From assembly GCA_950295325.1 (NCBI GenBank), contig OX485808.1, positions 14,076,501 through 14,140,500 on the forward strand: 64,000 nucleotides of DNA, given 5' to 3'. Position 1 is the stretch's first letter, and each line of letters begins with the position of its first letter. This DNA is from Polytrichum commune (lineage: Eukaryota > Streptophyta > Polytrichopsida > Polytrichales > Polytrichaceae). The notes under the pieces are model-generated. The model ran no database searches. It worked only from the letters and a program-made list of their open reading frames with translations, and was not told where the DNA came from. Below, one piece after another: positions 779 through 64,000 of this stretch. Both the position numbers and the translations under genes were made by a program.

Positions 779-894
779 AATGAAGAAGACTTGATAACAT
801 CTGAACTATGAAGTTTTCATGTGAATAGGTTTTTTTAAGTTCATTGTATCAATATGCAGGAGTCACTAATGCAAGGGTGGGAAGTCATCTATGA

Positions 895-1548
895 TCACAG
901 AGTTCAGACCTAGAGAGGGCGCCAACCCAGTCGGAGATCGAAGCAGAGCTTCAATCGCGGAGGGAAGAGGCAAAACAAAGGGCAGGCACGAGCCACATAT
1001 CCTCCGGATCTCGGGGACAAGCCAGAGTGGACCTTAGCTCTCATTCAAACCGCGTCTCGAACGCGGGTGAGGATCATGACATGCATAAGCGGATGCTAGG
1101 GTTCGAGGAGAGTATGAAACTTATTATGGCTGCTCTAAAAATTGGGGGAGTGGAGACGACACAAACCGTGAAGGACAACATTGGAAGGGTGGAGAGCTTA
1201 GACATTGCAAAGGATGACATTGGAGGGGTAGAGAGCTTGGACACCGCGAATGATGACATTAGAGGGGTGGAGAACTTATCCACCGCGAAAGAGGACATTG
1301 GAGGGATGGAGAACTTATCTACCGCGAAGGAGAATACTGGAGGGGTGGAGAGCACGGAGACCCCACAGGAGAAAACAGGAGGGTTGGACAGTTCAAAAAC
1401 CTTGGAAAAGATCATTGGAGCAGTGCACGGAGATAGTAACGTGAAAAACTCTTCGTTAGAACGTGCCCCCGCATACACTCTTACAGTAGTAATGGAATTT
1501 GATAATATAATATCTAGTAGTAGTGATGGTTTGCAATGTAATGACTAG
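895..1548 (+). pseudogene. CACTA-encoded linker exon with six 13-residue repeats
   Basis: Open from just after a tga at 892-894, with a plausible 3' splice site (gatcacag) at about 893-900. It begins SQSSDLERAPTQSEIEAELQ, a charged segment like the one that follows the transposase-associated block in plant CACTA genes, and continues RREEAKQRAGTSHISSGSRG. Residues encoded by 1171-1404 are six tandem 13-mers of the type K-x-D-I-G-G-V-E-S/N-L-x-T-A. The C-terminus runs into the palindrome array and stops at 1546-1548. No enzymatic motif is visible. It is probably the middle of the same transposon gene as the 2-778 block; the gene model is inferred. Confidence 0.5.
1171..1404 (+). repeat. 39-bp coding tandem repeat, six units
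   Basis: Six in-frame 39-bp units, each encoding 13 residues (for example KDDIGGVESLDTA, then NDDIRGVENLSTA). Later units drift (QEKTGGLDSSKTL) but keep the 13-residue register, so length was preserved while residues changed. Confidence 0.9.
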
Positions 1549-1839
1549 TTGTAGTCATGACTGAAAATGCGAGGACTGGCAGTAGTCATATTAGAGATAT
1601 AATGACCAGTAATAGTCATTTAGAAAAAGTAATGACTAGTAGTAGTCATTTTGGTTGAGCTAATACACTCTTACAGTAGTAATGGAATTTGATAATATAA
1701 TGTCTAGTAGTAGTCATGGTTAGCAATATAATGGCTAGTCGTAGTCATGCCTGAAAATGCCAGGAATGGTAGTAGTTATATTGGAGATATAATTACCAGT
1801 AATAGTCATTTAGAAAAAATAATGACTAGTATTAGTCAT
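1480..1839. repeat. Phased array of 18-bp near-palindromes in two ~190-bp tandem blocks
   Basis: Consensus ATGACTAGTAGTAGTCAT. Copies start at 1510, 1541, 1572, 1602 and 1632, and again at 1700, 1731, 1762, 1792 and 1822, so each group of five is spaced 30-31 bp apart. A degenerate copy (CTTACAGTAGTAATGG) leads each block at about 1480 and 1670. The best copy is 1632-1649. The two groups are a direct duplication with a 190-bp period. The same TAGTCAT/TGACTA words recur, irregularly spaced, toward the 3' terminus at 3950-4870. Confidence 0.85.
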
Positions 1840-1908
1840 TTTGGCCGGGCTAAATGCAGACTATGCCGAAAATATTGATTAATTTTCCTTCATGGAGGTT
1901 AAGGTTGA

Positions 1909-2304
1909 TTGAATGAAATAACAATGACCAAAGAAAAAAAATTGCAGAATAGGGAGAAAACGACAGTCCAACCTGAAAAGAAGAGCCAGGGAGCAGCTAT
2001 AATAGAAAAGGATGATGGAAAAGAAAGCGACACAATATCACAACATGAGGAGCAACGAAAAGGTCGAAGGAAGAGAGCCCGCATCTCGGAGGTGGAAAAA
2101 CTCCAAATTGCAGGAGCGCTGCAGGTGAGTCCGACTAAACTAAGGGCAGCTGCGGGGGAGCAGAAGAGGCCACGGACGAAGTTTGCGCAACATAGAGCTC
2201 CGAAAGGGAATGTGGGAAGCGCGAAAGTAGCCGAGGTGGTTGATGGCCGTCGGAAACAAGAGGGAGGAGCCTCAAAAAATGTAAACATCCTAACCTCACA
2301 TTGA
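1909..2304 (+). CDS. Lysine/arginine-rich ORF in the CACTA element, function unknown
   Basis: 131 codons, strongly basic, low complexity, with nuclear-localisation-like clusters (GRRKRAR, EQKRPRTK). No conserved domain recognised. It lies between the palindrome array and the DUF8039-like exon on the same strand, so it may be an internal exon of the same transposon protein, a nuclear DNA-binding linker. Whether it is translated as shown is unknown; the ATG at its start need not be used. An intron would be needed to reach the next exon at 2391. Confidence 0.35.
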   Translation: MNEITMTKEKKLQNREKTTVQPEKKSQGAAIIEKDDGKESDTISQHEEQRKGRRKRARISEVEKLQIAGALQVSPTKLRAAAGEQKRPRTKFAQHRAPKGNVGSAKVAEVVDGRRKQEGGASKNVNILTSH

Positions 2305-2390
2305 CCTTGTTTATAGCTTTCCGGCATCAACTATGTGTTATTGCATGTCGCATTCGAAAGTTTTTAATGTAAGTGTTGTTTACAATGCAG

Positions 2391-2702
2391 GAAGTCATAG
2401 TGATCGGGGAATCCTCCTCTACATTCTCCGTAGATGATGTTGTGGAAATTATGGGATATGGGGTAGGTGAGAAAGGTAAATTGGTTGCACACGGGAAGGT
2501 GAGAAACGTGCAAGGATGAACGGTGCATGGAGTTCCAATTTACGAAGGATGTGTGTCCGTGGAGGTAGCCAGAAGTGAAGAAGATGAACATGTATTTTTT
2601 AGAAGTGTGGAAATGAACGATTCATCCATACGAAAGATTGGGAAAGCCGTTGGGAATTTCATCTTGTGGCCGACGGAGTTTCTACGCCATGCATGTCTGT
2701 AG
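2391..2702 (+). pseudogene. DUF8039-like terminal exon of CACTA gene, TGA-interrupted
   Basis: A pyrimidine tract and tacaatgcag at 2381-2390 give a clear 3' splice site. The frame then reads EVIVIGESSSTFSVDDVVEI, continues GKLVAHGKVRNVQG, hits TGA at 2517-2519, resumes TVHGVPIYEGCVSVEVARS, and ends KIGKAVGNFILWPTEFLRHA before TAG at 2700-2702. The pattern 'V-A-x-G-x-V, HGVP, G-x-V-x-V, A-x-G-x-x-I-x-WP' matches, from memory, the DUF8039 domain found at the end of plant CACTA accessory proteins. The single stop replaces a residue in the turn before HGVP. With the TAG at 464, it makes this copy unable to encode the full protein. Confidence 0.7.
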
Positions 2703-2924
2703 TTGTAGTTCAGTATATAAAATATATGTTGGGTATAGGGTAGAGAGTGTGGAATAACAATCTGCAAAGAGCTGTGAGACTTTGCTTTGCGGACGAGACG
2801 TAGATGTGCAACGTATCCTACTGAAATACCGACAAGGCATTGAATATGCTTTGTCATCTGTTGTAGTGAATTTTATCAATATATCGACGAAACATATTCA
2901 TATTATGTTTTGCAGCAAGTGATG

Positions 2925-3890
2925 GCACTCAGTGTTAACAGTCGTACTGTCGCGCACCTCTCCATGAGGAGTGCCCGCAACACCATGGGCACAAGGGGGA
3001 CCCCGGAGTGACACCCGGGACTTGTGGCGCCATTGGTGAGAGGGCCCAAGTATTCTTGGTGTGGGTGAGGGCCCCGGGCGTTGAGAACGCCTCTCACCCA
3101 CGGGGACTAAGAGTCATGAGGGTAAGGCCATAAGTTTTGAGGAGCTTATGGCGGTGGAATTCTAGAATGCTAAGGAACACCTCAATCGGAGGTGCTAGCT
3201 AGGAGATATGGCCATTTGAGTGGGGCGCTGTCCCGGGACAGCACCCTGGGACAGCAGTGACCTGGGAGTGGTGCCCGGGACTGCCAAGGTTTGAAGAGCC
3301 ATAACTTCATCAATACTTGCCCGAATGAGGCAAGCAAGGGGTCCATTGGCATCTACGGAAAGAGTAGGTGACGATAGAGTGGTCGCTTGAGAGCATCAGA
3401 CATCATATGTAGAAGTTATTGTGGTCTGAAGCTGCTGGGGGGGTTCTAGCCCCAGCGGCTAAGGGAAAATGTCCACTTGGCCCCAACCCTTGTAGAGAGA
3501 CAAAAGGATACTTGATGGTGGGGTAGGGGCCCCGCCCAAAGTCCTAGAGGCTTATATGGGTGAGGCGGCTTAGCCGACCGACCCCCCCGGAGCATACTTG
3601 GCAATGTGCTCCGGGTAGTTGTAGTGTTGTTTTGGCAACACGATGATCAACTTAAGAGTGGACTTCCATGGATGGAAGTCCACCTTAGCCATTGGCTACC
3701 TACAAAGGGGAGAGTCCCGAATGCATGTGTAGGAGGGTTTGGTGACCTAGCCATGAGCTTGAAGGTCCGCGGTTTTGGGAGCTAACCATGCATGTGCGTG
3801 GGATGTGCAGGTTAGCGCTCATGGCACTTGCTAGGTTGGAAAGGCGGTCAAGCTAGGTGAAGGAAAACTAGCAAGGGTTGCGACACGTAC
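2925..3890. other. GC-rich, hairpin-rich block inside the CACTA element
   Basis: Much richer in G+C than both flanks, with abrupt edges. It contains several strong stem-loops: 3658-3683 is a 26-nt near-perfect palindrome (12-bp arms, 2-nt centre), and others are at about 3589-3618 (GGAGCAT...ATGTGCTCC), 3625-3642 (GTGTTG...CAACAC) and 3230-3262 (CTGTCCCGGGACAG). No long ORF; a short one starts at 2922 after a possible splice acceptor. It may be a nested solo LTR or a captured fragment; no TG...CA ends with a matching duplication were found. Confidence 0.4.
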
Positions 3891-3939
3891 TATGATGTGC
3901 ATTGTCTTAATGCAATGTCTATATGATATTACATCATGG

Positions 3940-4875
3940 AACTCAATGTTTAGTCATGCATTGTAGTCAAGTAATCCCCACTGATGACTACGCCTAGTTT
4001 CCTTATAGAAGAAAATTCATGAATGCAAAACGCAATGTTCTTTCAAAATGTTACTATTCGTAGTCATGTGCGGAGACCATATCCAGTCAGTAAAATGAGC
4101 ATATGTATTCAAATGTAATTGTAGTGCATCATTGAAATATTTTGACTATGCTTAGTCACATATTGTTGTAAGGTGTTCAAATATGATAACTACGTTTTCC
4201 AATATGTTGGTGCGCAAAATGTTTGTTCATGATGACAATGTGTAGTCACCATGTACACAGCAAAAACGTAATCGTTATTTTTGTAAATTTCGTTGATTTT
4301 GATAATAATACTACTTATTGACAAACATAATGACTACATATAATGACCTAAATTCAAACAGTAACTACTACACAAACATATTCACCAGCCTCTCAAAATG
4401 TAAAGCTTCAAATGAATATAATTTTGGGAAGAAATCATGTAACAGATGACTATTATTAGTTGCAGCATGACTAAATGCAGTTATTAATGAAAAAATGCAC
4501 TTCACGAATTAACAATGCCAGAAAAAACCGTGTAATCATGCAATTACAAAACATCATCACTTACAGTCATGTAGTGATCACTAATTCCAATCAAATGACA
4601 TTACTACACATGACTATATATAGACACACATCAATAACTAAATATAATGAAAAATGACAAGGCGTTGAGGGGCAGCCCAAAACGAGGTCCCAAAACCCCA
4701 TGGGGAACACTTCATGGGGAACAACAACTGTCCGATATAACCGTAGTCATTTTGTCTAGAGCGACTGGTCCGACATGACCAGGTTGAGGACTATAAATGG
4801 TGCTAGTCATCAGTGGACTTTACTACCGGATTTAGTCAGAAACCCCAGTCATTTTTTCGTGTTCTCCTTGTAGTG
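3940..4875. repeat. CACTA 3' subterminal repeat region and terminal inverted repeat
   Basis: Dispersed TAGTCA/TGACTA words in both orientations (for example near 3953, 3985, 4059, 4146, 4235, 4332, 4447, 4747, 4804, 4834). The region ends in the CACTA-type terminus at 4866-4875. Such subterminal motifs bind the element's accessory protein in known En/Spm elements. Confidence 0.7.
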
Positions 4876-5068
4876 TCAATAAATCATGTCTAGACTGAAG
4901 ACATCAAACAATGTTTTTTTTCTCTACCTACTATTCTCAAACCTATTTTAGATTGAAAGAATTAGATAAATTGATGCATTATATGGTACCCTTATTTTTT
5001 TGTACACAAAAATTTGTAATTGAAGAAGTGCTTCATTATATCGAAGAATTGTATAAATTTTCTCACAA

Positions 5069-5728
5069 ATGAATAAAAAATACCCTACATTCTTTCTCAC
5101 ATGGTTTAATAAATTTTCGCGAGTGCCCTACCCGGGGTGGCCCCACTTACTATCTACATGCGAACACCCATACCTAAAAGGGCTTAGAATTGCAAGACGT
5201 AACAAAGCAGTACACCTTATCACCCAGACACTACAAGCCAATAAAAACACCAGATTCCTTACCATGGTCAATGCATATCATCTCAACAATCGCCTACAAG
5301 AACAAACCGTACCAGACTGGCTCCTACGATGCATATGTCAACAACAACCATGCCAATGTCAAGATAAACTTAGACCCGACATCCTATGCATGATTGGAGC
5401 CCCCAACCATATAACATTTCCTATATCGCCATCACCTAACCACACAATACAATTCATTGAATTCACATATTGCCACGACATATTCCCTGAACAAGCCATT
5501 TCACAAAAACACGCCAAATATGACCCACTAAATAACACCATCCAGAATAATGGCTGGAAAACCAACCCCATCATAACAATCACGGCAGGAGTAAGAGGAG
5601 CCATACACGAACACTCCATTAAAAAACTCACAGAATTAAAAATCCCAAAATCAAACATCAAAAAACTCATGAAAGACATACACCAAAATGCCATTAAATA
5701 CCTCACCTATTTAGTATTAAACAAATGA
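5069..5728 (+). pseudogene. Non-LTR retrotransposon ORF2 C-terminus (5'-truncated copy 1)
   Basis: 219 codons open without a stop, aligning in translation with the 8515-9516 copy from about residue 24 (WPHLLSTCEHP against TWLHVLLKCKH). It lacks all reverse transcriptase motifs, so it is the truncated 3' end of a LINE-like element. Recognisable pieces: the last Cys and His of a CCHC knuckle, RRNKAV (the R-H-N motif, here RRN), a C-x-C-x4-C-x-C cluster in CICQQQPCQC, KLRPDILC, and IQFIEFTYCHD. The spacing PD...(E) suggests a PD-(D/E)XK restriction-like endonuclease as in R2-type elements; this is inference. The downstream 3' UTR ends in a pyrimidine tail near 5930. Confidence 0.65.
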
Positions 5729-5935: not shown

Positions 5936-8514
5936 CAAAATATATTACTAGAATAAATAAGGTTGTGATAAGCCTACAAGGTTGGTCCGTAGTGGGAGAA
6001 GAGTTATCCCATATTGTTTTATGACCCAAGTTTAAAATGAGCAATAAAGGGCAAGGCACATGGTGGAAGAGACCATCTCACTCCACGCATTGTTCATATG
6101 CCTTTGTGTATGTGTATATGCTTGTCCAAAACGATCTATGGTCTTATTGACTTCCAATAATAGCTAGGGGTGAAGCTCCTCTCAATCATGCTATGTATTG
6201 ATTGATGTTAACTCTCTATTGGATTTGCATACCATCATAGAGTGTGCGCAAGCAAAATGTTTTGGGAACTTTGTCTTTGGCGGCAGGGGGGGGGATGAAT
6301 AAGATGAATTTGTTGTAATAACACGTGTTGGTGTTCATACTTTATGTGGTACTTTAGTGTAGCTTTAAGCCTAAATAATTTCATATAGCAACTACAATAG
6401 GAAAAAAAACAATCAACATGTCTTGCTACTATAGTAACATATATTAAAGATTGTCAAGGGTGTATGTAAATTAACACAAGGTAACATAATTGCACATATC
6501 AATGTATATGTTGCATACAAGTGAGACTTCACTAATGTATCAACAACAAGCCGCATGTTAAGAGGGAGAATTATTAATATTTTCTCAACATGGAAAGCTC
6601 TATATGACAACTCTATAGATGAGTGGATGTAAAAAGGATGCTAAATGTCCCCTTTTATTTTCTTATGAGAGAGAGTGATCTTGTTGTTGCCTACATATGC
6701 TAACAAGCTTTGTTGCAAAATTATTCGCGACATATTCAAATGGGACATCGTTAACATAAAGCAATCTGCTACCATTATCACGAATAGTACATAGAACATC
6801 AATTAAAAGCGGGAATCATGTACCAAGTAGTTTAGACGTTTAGACTCATTGGATAAAGGAAAGCTTCAAGTTCAATTGTCCTCGAATGGAGAATTTAAGA
6901 AATCATTTTTTGTACATATACCTAAGATCAAGCAAAGTCTTAGTTAGAAAAACATTAAGAGCATCATCTTGCACATGTGTGCCCAAAGTATAAAAAATGA
7001 TTAAAAAATAAACTCAATCAAGTGATAATGGAATAAATGGATTATTTATCATAAGTAGCGGCTTATGGTTGATACTATCATTCTTCTCGTTGCACGTTTC
7101 AAATGTGTCATGTCATTGGCGTTGAAATTGATAAAACGGGGAACTCTTAGTATTGGTTGTTAACACATTGGAAAATGGACCAATTGTTTTTGACAATATT
7201 TTGTGAATTGAGTAATGAGGATCAACACAAGCCTATGTGTTGCAAGTCAAATTTGCATCATATTATAGGATTCTATGAAGTTTTGTAGCCTTTGCACTAC
7301 CAACCAAACGCTATGAGCTATTTGGCATTCTATGGGGCCATCTTTCCCTTGGAAAAGGTTTGTCCAGGTGGAGATAAAACTTCAATGATACTTGACATAG
7401 TTCATTAGGGTGTGGAAAGTATAATTGGACCATTGGAATGGTGTGTTTTAATTTTATTTTGGAACACAAGAAGTGCATGGGCACTTGGCTAGTTTTTTCG
7501 TCAAGTAGAGAAAACATTTCACCACTAGGAATCGAATCGCCAACAACACAATTCGGTTTTAGGTACATCTTCGGTATCATCTGGAAGTTTAGGGTCATCT
7601 CGGACCTACTGGAATGGCATATCTATCTTTCAAGAGGGAAATGGGCCTATGACATTGCCAACACGAGCGAGTTGTTTGCCCAAAGTGGAAGTTTGTGGTT
7701 CACAATCACGTAGATAGATAGTAGAACATAGGATGTGACGTTCTAGCAAGTTGTTTGACTTGTCACAATACATTGAGTTATATAAAATAAGCTTCTACAA
7801 GTCAAATTTTGTATACATACCAATTTGACAAAGGATTTGAATTTGTAGATGTTGGCAAGTCTTTGGACAATTTCTCTTAATATCTTATTAAGTAATAATC
7901 TTCATTTGGAATAGGGGGTTTGCTTTTGGGGGAGGAGATTGTCTTCTTATTAAACACACAAGTTAGAATGTGCAAGTCATGGTATTTCTCTGATTTGAAT
8001 TTTGCATGGTTGATTTGATGACCATTTGTACTATGTGAATGTACAAATATGTGAATGCTTCCAAGGAGTACATATTTGAAGGTTCATGTAATAGGAAAAT
8101 ATTTCTCTAAAAATGTACAATATAACAATGGTGGGGCCATACTAACATGTCATAGGAATTCAAATTTTTTTTCTACATGAATAAGAGTCAACTCCAACTT
8201 CGGAATAAAGAGATGTATACTCTCCTTTCTTAAGCTTCAACTTTCATAATGAATTATGCCATATCAACACCAACCAATCTTTGGAAAGACATTGTCCCTA
8301 GTTGGATCCTCCCTCACCATTGCACATGTCCCCCTCTCCCATGCCACTGACTCACTTCATTTTGCCCATATATACTCCCCACCCATGCACCTCCCACTCA
8401 AGCAATCATTCTTCATTACATGGATGTCATATATTGCTATGAAAATTTCATGTAAACAACCATATAGGATTTTTTGGAGAAACATACTTTCTTGATACAA
8501 GTTGTCAAAGTGGC
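5936..8514. other. AT-rich intergenic stretch without recognised gene
   Basis: Only short ORFs; the longest (7438-7713, 91 codons, plus) is open but matches nothing I know. There is a G run at about 6286-6294. No terminal repeats were identified. Sequence just before 8515 may be the diverged upstream part of retrotransposon copy 2. Confidence 0.5.
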
Positions 8515-9516
8515 ATGTTGGAAAGTCCAACCAGTACTTATCCTTGCGGTTGCACTCAATGCAAGAAACGCCAGACAAAGGCCCCATTCGACACCTTGGT
8601 AAATACATCATTAAATATGACAAAAAAACATAACCTATCCCTCATAGCAACCCAAACACACCAATTACACAAATGGCTAGACAACAAAGACATAGACAAA
8701 ACATTATCAAATGATTTTTGGAATAACCCAGTCATCACAGATAGGCAAAAAACATGCCTAGTAAAATTCCGAACCGGACAATATATGGGACATGCTCGGA
8801 AACAACTCTTCTTTGGTAGAAACGTATACCCATCCCATACATGTCCTATTTGTAACTCCCTAGAAGCAGACACATGGCTACATGTACTCCTAAAATGTAA
8901 ACATTAACACATCCATGCGCTCATAACAAATAGACATAACAGAGCGGTATGGGAAATACGCAAACTTCTCGTCTCAAACAAAGTAACAAGACATTACATA
9001 CTTATGAATGCCGGCACATACAATGAACTACCCCAAGAAAACACAGTACCAACATGGTTACTACCATGCACATGCGACACCCAAAGATGCCACTGCAACG
9101 CTAGGCTCAAACCCGACATAATATGCATCTTAGGCCACCCATACGACTCCCCACCACCATAAGCACCTACACCCACAATTACTATACAATTCATTGAATT
9201 TACATACTGCAATGACATATTCTCTGCTGAAACAAGAGAACGAAAAATTACAAAATATCAACCACTCATCAATAATATTATAGCAAGAGGCTGGAACGTA
9301 GCCCCACTTATTGTAATAGCATCAGGGGCCAGAGCCACAACTCACATACCCTCGATGAATGAACTCGAAACAAAGCTTAAACTCCCTACATCACAAATTA
9401 GGAGCACATTCAAACAAATTAATATAATCGCCATACAATACGCACACTCAATATTAATCCATAAAAAACGGATAGAAAATAGACAACCCATCACAGACTT
9501 ACAAAATCATAATTAA
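8515..9516 (+). pseudogene. Non-LTR retrotransposon ORF2 C-terminus (copy 2), two stops
   Basis: One frame of 333 codons with TAA stops at 8905-8907 and 9160-9162, ending at TAA 9514-9516. In order: a helical thumb-like segment (FDTLVNTSLNMTKKHNLSLI), KFRTGQYMGHARKQLFFG, the zinc knuckle CPICNSLEADTWLHVLLKC (C-x2-C-x11-H-x4-C), the first stop, then NRHNRAVWEIRKLL, a C-x-C-x5-C-x-C cluster (CTCDTQRCHC), ARLKPDIICIL, the second stop, IQFIEFTYCND, and a helical tail ending LQNHN. Knuckle, RHN and PD...E occur in the order seen in restriction-like endonuclease non-LTR elements. The upstream RT core is not visible. A dead copy. Confidence 0.7.
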
Positions 9517-17833: not shown

Positions 17834-18080
17834 AGCATTGTCTTCAGGATGGTTGCATGACAATTTTCCCAGTGAAACTATATTTGAGCCAACCTAATAC
17901 AAAATGAAATTGAAAATACATATGTATGCAACAAATGGTGATCACATGTAGGATTGTGGTCATTCCTATGATTGTGCATTTAATTAGTGAGATGATTTCA
18001 TAGATAAGTATCACAATTCAACTCAAAATAATAGGCAGTAACATTAAACAAAATGGACCCTTGGGACCTTTAAGGGTTGA

Positions 18081-18248
18081 TATAACATAGGAGACTAGAT
18101 TTGTCTTGTTGTCAAACGTATGACTAGGTGAGATCATATAACATAGGAGACTAGATTTGTCTTGTTGTCAAACATATGACTAGGTGAGATCATATAACAT
18201 AGGAGACTAGATTTGTCTTGTTGTCAAACATATGACGAGGTGAGATCA
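18081..18248. repeat. 56-bp tandem repeat, three units
   Basis: Units begin at 18081, 18137 and 18193 (TATAACATAGGAGACTAGAT...). They differ by only a few bases (AAACGTATG against AAACATATG; GACTAGG against GACGAGG), so the array is recent. Confidence 0.9.
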
Positions 18249-20470
18249 TATGGTCATTTTGGTCTTGTAGGATTATGTATTCTAACCTCCCTATTGTCAT
18301 GCACGTGTCAACCAAAGTGGACATGATATCAAGGAGGTTTGCAATGTGAACATGGATGCATGTTAATGGAGAATTAGTTCAACATTGCAATAATGACAAT
18401 GATGACAAAGTTGACAACATGATGCGTGCTAGTTTATGGTTTCAATTCTTGGTGGATTATTTTCATTTCAAATTCTATGACATACAAGAAAGTATTGTGA
18501 CAACAAGGATGAAGATTTAAACTGAGCACATCTGTTCCCTAGGGTTTCGGGATATAAGAGAGGGAGTGACATAATATGGGATCTTCATGGCTAACTTGCA
18601 CAGTAGCCTGAAGAGGTTATGTGGAGTATGTACCAATGCTTCTATACCAATTCATTTATAAATAAATGTGAAGCTCGCTCTCTAAGAATCGAATGGAATC
18701 GATTTGAGGGTGGGATCCAGATATTGAAAAATTTATTCTGTGTGGCGATGTTTATGCCTTTTGTTCATCATGGAAGCTTGAAACGGATTCTTATGGGTAT
18801 GGATGCTTCAGACTTGGATGTATGTATGAACATGGTGTTTCAACTTGGACAAGTTTAATGTACGCATATCAGGTTGATTTTTGTTGTTATGCATACACTT
18901 CATGGCAGAACATTCTCCTGCATAAGGTAGAGCATGCTAAAACCCCATAGAACTAACACTGTAAAACCTTGCACAATACGAACATGTTGATTTTGCAAAA
19001 GTCCACCACCTGAGAGAGTTGGGTGAATTCCAATAAAACTTTTGAGGAATTTCATCTTGATTCTTGCGAATGTGAGTGCATGTGAACTTTTGCATTCAAA
19101 ATTTGGTCCTGAAATTTGCAATCTTAGTGATTAGTATTTGCTAAGTGGATGAGAGAATTTCCAATCCCATCCAACAGGCAAATTTGTCCTTAGAGTTGGA
19201 AGTCCCACAGCAGGGCCACATACTTTTGTGGAACCTCAGCTTGACAAGTATGACTCACATGACAAGGAACTCAAAAACATTTGAACAAAAAACCTGGGTT
19301 GGCAGTGCCCAGTCCAGTGTCAGGTGATTTTTGGACATTATCAGTCAAGATCCTTGGATTTCCAAGTTCAACCAGTTACATGCCGACATCTTTCGGTTTT
19401 TTGGGGTAAGATGTGGGTGTATTCCATAGATTCCTCTAAAGTAATTGGTAAGTTTCCTGAAGTCTTGAACTTCGATCAGTTATTTCTCAAACTCAACTGG
19501 TTCATATGTAACTAAGCTTACCAGCCGGTTCTCCCCATTGATTGGACCCAGTTGATCTTCGATCTAAGAATAATGATTTTAAATTGGTAGACTCCTTGCT
19601 TCGAGGACTGTTCCCATCTGCAAAGAGCTCTTAACTCTGAACCCCTACATACTGGCCGGGTATATGCAATTAAATTTCAGGAATTTTACCTTGTTCATAT
19701 TTTCTTCCAAAACTCAATTGTTTAGTGTCCTAGTTAGTGGATGCTGAAATCAAAATCATGGGCTGGGTCGGGTCGTCTGACAACCAGAAAATGGATAAAA
19801 TTTATTGTTTAGAGTTTGATGTATGCTGAGCTGATGGTATTCCCACTCCAGAGCATGAGGTTTTGCAATCCTATATCCTAAGTGCAAAGGTTTGCAAAGT
19901 TTCTTCCTAAATGCTAAACATTTGAACCTAGCAAAAATGATGAGTTCCAGAACTTCAATTCTTAGAATGAGGATGTGTCCAAAAATTTGCTGAACAAATG
20001 CATCATCATCCCCACATTGTGTGTGGTGGAACTGATCCAATGATGTTTGTATTTCGAACTTGTTATTCTTCTTGTTGTGATCCCTGATCATCTTGCGAAG
20101 ATGTTCAATCACACAGTAAGGTTTCAAGCGCACAAAACTGACAAAATTGTACAGAATTACTCTCAAGACAGGAAGATTCTAAGTCTGTCAAGAAAAAGGG
20201 AAAATTCGGTGCCCATGTGTATTTACCATAGAGCATGTAAGGATATATACAATCGACAGATTCATCAACGTCCTCCTCCGCCATGACTAACCACATGATT
20301 TAGAAGCTCTTAGAAAATCCCATTCAACAGGATATAAGAGTATCACAAATGATGAAAATTAAAAAAAGAAGTTTCCTAAGTATTTGGCACATAATTAATC
20401 TTGTGGTATAAGTAGTTGCAGACGTGTACAATAGAGTTGTATACCTAAGTGCATGTAAAAATCTTGAGGA
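18249..20470. other. Intergenic, no gene recognised
   Basis: Only short ORFs. 19183-19213 (TTAGAGTTGGAAGTCCC...GGGCCACAT) is a fragment of a dispersed repeat also present at 40.2, 43.7 and 48.1 kb. Otherwise nothing identified. Confidence 0.4.
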
Positions 20471-59600: not shown

Positions 59601-60507
59601 TAAGCTTTTCCATTTGCATATAGTTAAAATTAGATACATACTCTTATTATGTATGGTTGGAGCAATTGATACAATCAATGGAATCAATACTAGACAAAGG
59701 CTATAGTCTAAAATTTTATTTCACAAATCTCAATGCCTACTTCTAGGCATTGTCATCATTGGTTGAAAAGAATAATGATCCCATAATGATGCACAAATGT
59801 TTCACGATAGCCTCAAATGTCATCATAGGCAATGTTTGGACTCCCAAATCCCTAGTTTGACTTGGATGTTGAATTTGAGAAACCAAGTGATGATTGCATG
59901 TTCTAGATGGACCATTCTTGATTCATATGGTCATGTTCACTACAAAGATTCTTTGAATATTCTATTGTTATTACAAGAGGTTGTAATAGCTTATGCATTT
60001 CAACCTAAGAACAAATGAGAGGGCATCTAGAAGGGGGAGGGGAGGAAGACGAAAGTTTATCAACAAAACATGAAGTATTTGTGGGTTATTATACATATGG
60101 TTACCATCTTCCTCTTTTCCCCATCCAAAAGTGGTGCATCTTGTTCCTTTTGAAGTTGTATATTTTTTCAACTTAGAAATCTTCTTTCTTGAGCTTTACT
60201 AAATTGAAAATTAGTTGGATATTTTTTATCGAATGTTATAATTGAGTGCAAATGCAACATGTGCATTGTGACACTTTTCTACCCTCCGTGCATGTCATTA
60301 GTAGATATTTTATACTCTCACGGCCTAACATTAATGATACACAACATCCACGACATACAACCCTACTTAAGTCACTCCAATAAATATGTTATGCTCCCAA
60401 ATGCTAATTCCTCATGAGACTCTGCCCAAATTTATTTTTTTGGTGTCTTCGAAACCTCTCCCAAATGATTGGTCTCCCTTGACCTCCTTTATCATTCTTT
60501 CCATCTA
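56613..60507. other. Intergenic, no gene recognised
   Basis: 57590-57730 and 57775-57875 hold diverged direct repeats ('GnnTCTAATGnn...GGAGTCAAnTnAnCTAAA'). C run at 57330-57336. Several short ORFs without recognised domains. Confidence 0.4.
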
Positions 60508-62894: not shown

Positions 62895-63430
62895 CTTATT
62901 ACGGTCCCACCCTCAATATGTGTTATCATGGTAAGTGTTAAAATTGCCTCTGTGTTAAGGAAAATTTGCGCTCCCCAAAAATAATGCAAAGACTTACATG
63001 GTAGGTGTTGATTGTTAAATGTTAAGAGGATTCATATAAAAAAAATCTTTTCTTTTTCGATGAATTCATCTTGATAAGTGTTAATTTGGATAAAAGTGAG
63101 GCTATGGAATTTTATAACTTGGATGAAATCGAAGTAGACATGTTCATGATGTGTTTGACTTCTACATAGGGTGAAATTGGACTTACTGTGAATGCACATG
63201 AGTTCATCAATTATGAATTGAAATTTGATTAAAAAAAAATTCCCACATACATATTGAGGAGGAAATAAAAGGTCTGCTTGATGAAATAGATGATGCAGTT
63301 GATAATGCACCCATTGAAGAAGCCCACAATGTGCAAATTGGTGATGTGGTGATAGATATAGTAGGATTTAAAGGATGTTGAAAGCGCATTAGTGACCTTG
63401 AAACAATTTTTGGAACAAAAAATATTGATG
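62895..63430 (+). pseudogene. Possible pogo/Tigger-like transposase remnant
   Basis: TTATTACGGTCCCACCCTCA at 62893-62912 resembles the mariner-like terminus at 47162. Downstream, two frames give NLDEIEVDMF, GLTVNAHEFINYELKFD and, after a shift, EEEIKGLLDEIDDAVDNAPI and ISDLETIFG. This is acidic C-terminal tail sequence of the sort that ends Tigger/CENP-B-like DDE transposases. No DDE core is visible, several stops occur, and the assignment rests on general pattern. Confidence 0.3.
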
Positions 63431-63434
63431 TAAC

Positions 63435-64000
63435 CTCAGGGGGGGGGGGTAGTCATTGGTTGGAGTAGCAATATACGTGCGAACAAATGATAGGGTATTT
63501 TAAAAACATGGGGGCTAAAAATTATAAATGGAGTTAAGAGTAATATAGGGTATCAACCATGACACTGGACATCTTTAAAGTACTATAGGGTATGGAATAA
63601 TAGGTAATTTGGAATTATAAGTAATGCAAGCCATTTTTCTATTAACCCAAAGTAGAAATTTACATAATGATAGCATGTGAAAAAAGAAGAGAATTGAAAG
63701 TAATACCCCCCTATAAAATAGTGGTTGTTCGCACCTATATCCCTTGGGGGGGGTAGTCATTGGTTGGAGTAGCAATACACGTGCGAACAAATGATAGGGT
63801 ATTTAAAAAACATGAGGGCAAAAAATTACAATTGGACTCAAGAGTAATACAGGGTATCAAAAATGGCATTGGACATCTTTAAAGCACTATAGGGTATGAA
63901 ATAATAGGTAATTTGGAATTATAAGTAAAGGCAAGCCATTTTTCTATTAACCCAAAGTAGAAGTTTACATAATGATAGCATGTGAAAAAAAGAAGAGAAT
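63435..64000. mobile_element. G-rich-ended TIR element, tandemly duplicated, running off the window
   Basis: Starts CTCAGGGGGGGGGGGTAGTC. The block TAGTCATTGGTTGGAGTAGC begins at 63450 and again at 63754 (period 304), and the copies are nearly identical through to the end. The first unit ends near GTTGTTCGCACC, inverted to ...GTGCGAACAA, also present 40 bp inside its left end, so each unit has a TIR. Ends resemble the 31122 and 60726 elements. Confidence 0.7.

Follow-up and report, generated by a model that had tools for sequence, protein, structure and literature searches.

VANDAL21 is a member of the MULE superfamily, and TnpA of the maize element En/Spm recognises a 12-bp motif to which it binds as a dimer. 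The subterminal repeats of Spm are recognised by TnpA (PMC2613891), and TnpA activates Spm together with demethylation (PMC10398659). For VANDAL21 of Arabidopsis, PMC5735166 describes VANC21 motifs that are dense and lie in one orientation within tandem repeats, which occur in introns of VANB21 and VANC21 as well; tandem peptide motifs are also frequent in the variable parts of VANC proteins. The binding sites known from CACTA elements are subterminal and sit at the ends. Here we describe a CACTA-like element of Polytrichum commune that ends at position 4875 of a 64-kb window (the whole stretch analysed; contig OX485808.1, positions 14,076,501 to 14,140,500 of the forward strand), and in which a regularly spaced array inside the element may be a further cluster of sites of the subterminal, dimer-binding type. 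Among the matches listed from the open-licence literature, no title or opening of an abstract described CACTA subterminal words arrayed inside an element. We give about even weight to the view that the array, internal and non-coding, represents a cluster of the element's subterminal-type dimer sites, amplified in tandem, at which a TnpA-like protein docks for regulation or un-silencing. If this is true, CACTA elements would be linked to the tandem-motif anti-silencing of VANDALs, which would suggest that different superfamilies arrived at the same answer to host silencing. An earlier note on this DNA had proposed much of this; the shared words and the internal position of the array stand, docking is the best of the readings it offered, the exact helical phasing is not borne out and the nested end is unlikely.

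The array and the end of the element are laid out as follows.

1473–1662, + strand: block A, 190 bp, a leader followed by sites starting at 1510, 1541, 1572, 1602 and 1632
1663–1852, + strand: block B, 190 bp, a tandem copy of block A with sites starting at 1700, 1731, 1762, 1792 and 1822
3931–4875, + strand: 3' subterminal region, 945 bp, with 14 occurrences of TAGTCA, half-sites often paired as 7-4-7, and irregular spacing
4854–4875, − strand: 3' terminus, CACTACAAGGAGAACACGAAAA; the + strand ends in TAGTG, at 4875, and the 5' partner would fall outside the window

All ten 18-bp sites were found at the starts that had been claimed for them, with the same spacing of 31, 31, 30 and 30 bp in both blocks. 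The five sites of a block resemble ATGACTA-GTAG-TAGTCAT, and each consists of two 7-bp half-sites, 11 bp apart, that together make an imperfect palindrome. This layout suggests binding by a dimer whose contacts lie roughly one turn of the helix from each other. They had been called near-palindromes; inverted symmetry is indeed present, pairing covering 4 to 8 of the 9 positions, but the sites are asymmetric and the right half is better kept, with TAGTCAT exact in 8 of the 10 and the left half ATGACTA in 3. A search of the 64-kb window for ATGACTAGTAGTAGTCAT with up to 3 mismatches returned 15 matches, 14 in the array and one stray at 59733, against a mean of 0.06 and a largest count of 1 in the shuffled window. 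The 14 correspond to nine of the ten sites on the + strand, five of which match on the − strand as well; the site at 1762 escapes this pattern with 4 mismatches, as counted by eye. A sixth, degenerate right half, TAGTAAT, can be read at 1487–1493 and 1677–1683. The leader of each block also holds ACACTCTTA (1475–1483 and 1665–1673), which agrees with the maize En/Spm TnpA motif over nine bases, perhaps by chance.

Palindromes of this kind might instead work at the level of the transcript, as RNA hairpins that affect splicing for example, and the + strand of 1500–1850 folds better than 100 of 100 shuffles (z −2.65). Repeats and palindromes, however, yield such folding even when the RNA has no function, full pairing over 9 positions is reached by none of the ten sites, and in the 3' region the words stand on either strand. 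A role as RNA hairpins is highly improbable.

Both blocks of the earlier note are present, yet they are not independent of each other. Block B duplicates the 190-bp block A in tandem, as an alignment of the two shows directly (18 differences), so that the repeated spacing pattern amounts to one observation. Before this, a unit of 30–31 bp would have been multiplied in tandem; duplication of the whole block then gave the ten sites. The array was confirmed to be internal, between coding-like blocks, and it is itself non-coding, with stops in all three frames. A reading of the array as coding DNA was rejected on account of these stops; in the longest stretch that is open in both blocks, the differences are mostly residue-changing as judged by eye.

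The words of the array match those of the 3' subterminal region, as had been claimed. TAGTCA is the commonest 6-mer there (8 on the + strand and 6 on the −, the array excluded), and ATGACTA/TAGTCAT leads the 7-mers of the array and of the 3' region alike. In 500 first-order Markov simulations of the 3' region, TAGTCA had a mean of 0.7 and a maximum of 4, and no 6-mer of any kind exceeded 12. Within the array TAGTCA ranks second, with 11 occurrences behind the 12 of AGTCAT, and exact TAGTCA is absent from 1–1472, 1853–2920 and 2921–3930. With up to one mismatch, half-sites numbered 28 among starts in 3880–4869, against 4.3 expected from mononucleotide shuffles.

The word had been derived from the array, but the test of half-site pairing used only the 3' region, where 28 of 29 half-sites were evaluated. 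Inverted partners in the 3' region peak at offset +11, as in the array (mean 3.61 of 7 against 1.95 over 107 other offsets, z 5.4). A partner matching at least 4 of 7 positions stood at +11 for 15 of the 28 half-sites, whereas the 107 other offsets averaged 2.9 and never gave more than 8, the palindromes at 4142 and 4232 being counted from both halves. Offsets below 7, at which the words overlap, were left out of the test; the means at −5 and +5 (3.25 and 3.32) are about the effect of two shared bases. That half-sites of the 3' region pair at +11 too suggests that the 7-4-7 dimer geometry belongs to the recognition site of the element itself. A matrix of the full site, derived from the array, gave 13 hits above 6 bits, in 9 places, within 3900–4876, and 20 elsewhere in the window outside the array.

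The earlier note had also allowed that the array was the end of a nested relative. Subterminal-type words located away from the ends speak for a remnant of such a nested or rearranged end, and the first site includes a TAGTG at 1521, with five more copies of it ahead of the true end. Against this, no second copy of the 3' terminus was found in the 64-kb window at up to 3 mismatches, the + strand of 865–4578 contains no CACTA, and the longest string common to the array and the 3' region is just 12 bases. A nested end thus has very little probability.

On the 3' side, short subterminal repeats occur in both orientations, as in CACTA elements, and since both the 3' end and the 3' subterminal region are present the element can be called CACTA-like. 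Comparisons covered the 64-kb window and the literature, and hence a single copy of the element, whose 5' end, together with the flank that would carry the partner of a 3-bp target site duplication, lies outside the window. Transposase_21, the domain of the TNP2/TnpD transposase, matched none of the pieces searched and may sit upstream of the window. Pfam searches with E up to 1, or up to 10 in one case, and with filters applied, returned sub-cut-off matches alone for the element's coding-like parts (FlgT_N, E 0.033 and 0.42; Myc-LZ, E 1.2). Relatives were not found among viral contigs (queries: the EF1A-like stretch, 2520–2699 and the 22-base terminus), prokaryote genomes (query: the terminus) or plasmids (query: 895–2330), all of them collections of organisms other than plants.

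Like maize En/Spm, the element has subterminal repeats, seen here beside a CACTA-like 3' end, those of Spm being bound by an element-coded protein (PMC2613891, PMC10398659); unlike En/Spm, it uses a different word, carries a second dense cluster inside the element and gives no Transposase_24 match. Soybean Tgmt* likewise has stem-loop-capable subterminal motifs in direct and inverted order, but in the text of PMC2613891 these are TTGGCAG and AATCTTACAG and are placed in the two borders only. Chenopodium Jozin also bears a tandem array within a CACTA element, there a captured satellite; unlike the present array, it is built of a 171-bp monomer in 32.5 copies near the 3' end, and the source text draws no link to subterminal words (PMC8978399).

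VANDAL21 with VANC21 resembles this element in its internal motif arrays, and the coding repeat of 13 amino acids (aa) that lies upstream of the array here recalls the VANC peptide motifs (PMC5735166, PMC10398659). The array is dense and same-oriented within tandem non-coding repeats, with the exact TAGTCAT right halves (8/10) on the + strand. Unlike VANDAL21, the element belongs to another superfamily with other ends, and the VANC21 motif, YAGTATTAY, is never termed a palindrome in the text of PMC5735166. VANC-type DUF1985 and DUF287 had no Pfam match in the pieces within the window. Binding and loss of methylation are demonstrated for VANDAL21, whereas the element described here is known from sequence alone. 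It resembles VANDAL/VANC in layout only and is not classed as one.

In the docking model, the element's own TnpA-like protein probably binds the array as well as the ends. This protein may be encoded by the stretches that surround the array, all in one orientation:

2–778, + strand: two adjoining open stretches in one frame, parted by TAG at 464–466; no significant Pfam match
1165–1353, + strand: 39-bp tandem repeat upstream of the array, in frame in the open reading frame (ORF) 895–1548, where it gives a 13-aa peptide repeat
1909–2304, + strand: basic ORF of 131 aa downstream of the array, a candidate DNA-binding region; no Pfam match
2391–2702, + strand: two open stretches in one frame, parted by TGA at 2517–2519, with an acceptor-like AG at 2390; no Pfam match

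The consensus of the 13-aa repeat is roughly (D/E)DIGGVESLDTAK, and acceptor-like AGs occur at 859, 2390 and 2915. Because the stops at 464 and 2517 part adjoining open stretches, this copy of the element seems broken and may no longer act. By analogy with known systems, protein bound inside the element would tune the element's expression, and it would keep the non-coding stretch clear of silencing chromatin, in the manner of VANC21 on VANDAL21 and TnpA on Spm.

The same arrangement could be read as promoter-proximal control DNA of a second gene starting at the ATG at 1924, with the bound protein repressing or activating the promoter of that gene in an autoregulatory manner. The array ends 72 bp before this ATG, which lies within the basic ORF 1909–2304, and the donor-like sites ahead of the array are weak. 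The single orientation of the coding-like stretches and the three acceptor-like AGs would fit one spliced gene instead, and we consider a second-gene promoter unlikely.

Slippage could also have amplified a unit that held the subterminal word by chance, leaving a neutral minisatellite with no function. Satellite arrays within CACTA elements are known (PMC8978399), and the 190-bp duplication is in keeping with such an origin. Within a block, however, the 18 site columns of the five units compared are more alike than the other 12 (80% against 45% identical in block A and 77% against 49% in block B; permutation p 0.0001 and 0.003), and the 3' region has the same word and the same 7-4-7 geometry. 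On the 3' side of the site, identity over 6 columns falls to 27% and 32%, the level given by base composition being 29%. A neutral minisatellite is rather unlikely on this evidence.

Several observations nevertheless weigh against the array being a docking cluster, and the first of them also favour the minisatellite. The 6 columns 5' of the site are alike among units as well (63% and 67%), and the contrast is no weaker when a 24-column unit is compared with the 6 columns on its 3' side (p 0.00005 and 0.0001), so that some of the likeness of the units comes from their tandem origin or from a site longer than 18 bp. Probably the units arose one from another, and the site and its 5' flank were retained. 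Since the block duplication, sites and other bases have changed equally (9 of 90 and 9 of 100, respectively). The regular 30–31-bp spacing was found in the array only and not in the 3' region, and the array-built matrix scores the stray match at 59733 (15.1 bits) above the best 3' site (13.7 bits, at 4050); sites of the 3' region tend to have a weak second half, which lowers their scores. A Transposase_24 or TnpA-like Pfam domain was absent from the matches of the element's pieces, which is weak evidence because TnpA is strongly divergent between species (PMC2613891, PMC8195511). Splice donors in 1380–1560 are weak, the best agreeing with 6 of 9 consensus positions, so that an intron around the array is something we infer. 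Finally, the evidence comes from one copy of the element, and the binding protein stands at the level of a candidate.

The earlier note had placed every site on the same face of the helix. At 10.5 bp per turn this fails, the five sites of a block lying at 0, −17, −34, −86 and −137 degrees. With a helical repeat of 10.17 the five fall within 35 degrees, the second block being about 114 degrees off, and with 10.0 all ten sites fall within 72 degrees. Same-face phasing is thus best within a block and at a helical repeat near 10.2, a value close to that of nucleosomal DNA, and not at 10.5.

The observed/expected ratio of CpG is 0.34 in the array; it is 0.86 and 0.92 in the stretches on either side, 0.65 in the 3' region and 0.59 over the remainder of the window. 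The 62 site cytosines of both strands comprise 2 CG, 9 CHG and 51 CHH. This low CpG content may be a plain consequence of the word itself. A more speculative extension, to which we attach a low probability, is that a CACTA element evolved an internal anti-silencing platform independently of VANDALs, in which binding to a tandemly amplified, CG-poor array of its own dimer sites escapes CG methylation and is served by a protein that itself bears the expanding 13-aa repeat.

A GC-richer block (2921–3930, 54% GC) lies between the coding-like part of the element and the 3' subterminal region and is perhaps an insertion; its edges have no clear terminal inverted repeat, the best agreeing at 13 of 20 positions. 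Elsewhere in the window, genes with EF-Tu-type GTPase, HIT and TAXi/aspartyl protease domains are present, EF1A and a plant nuclear origin being our interpretation. The open frames at 5057–5728 and 8443–8907 resemble the ends of LINE-type retrotransposon proteins by eye and have no significant Pfam match. A 56-bp tandem repeat containing ATGACTAGGTGAGATC occupies 18080–18251 (3.1 copies, 98% matches), and at 63430–64000 a direct repeat of about 300 bp, with two copies in view, starts with a G run and TAGTCATTGGTTGGAGTAGCAATA.
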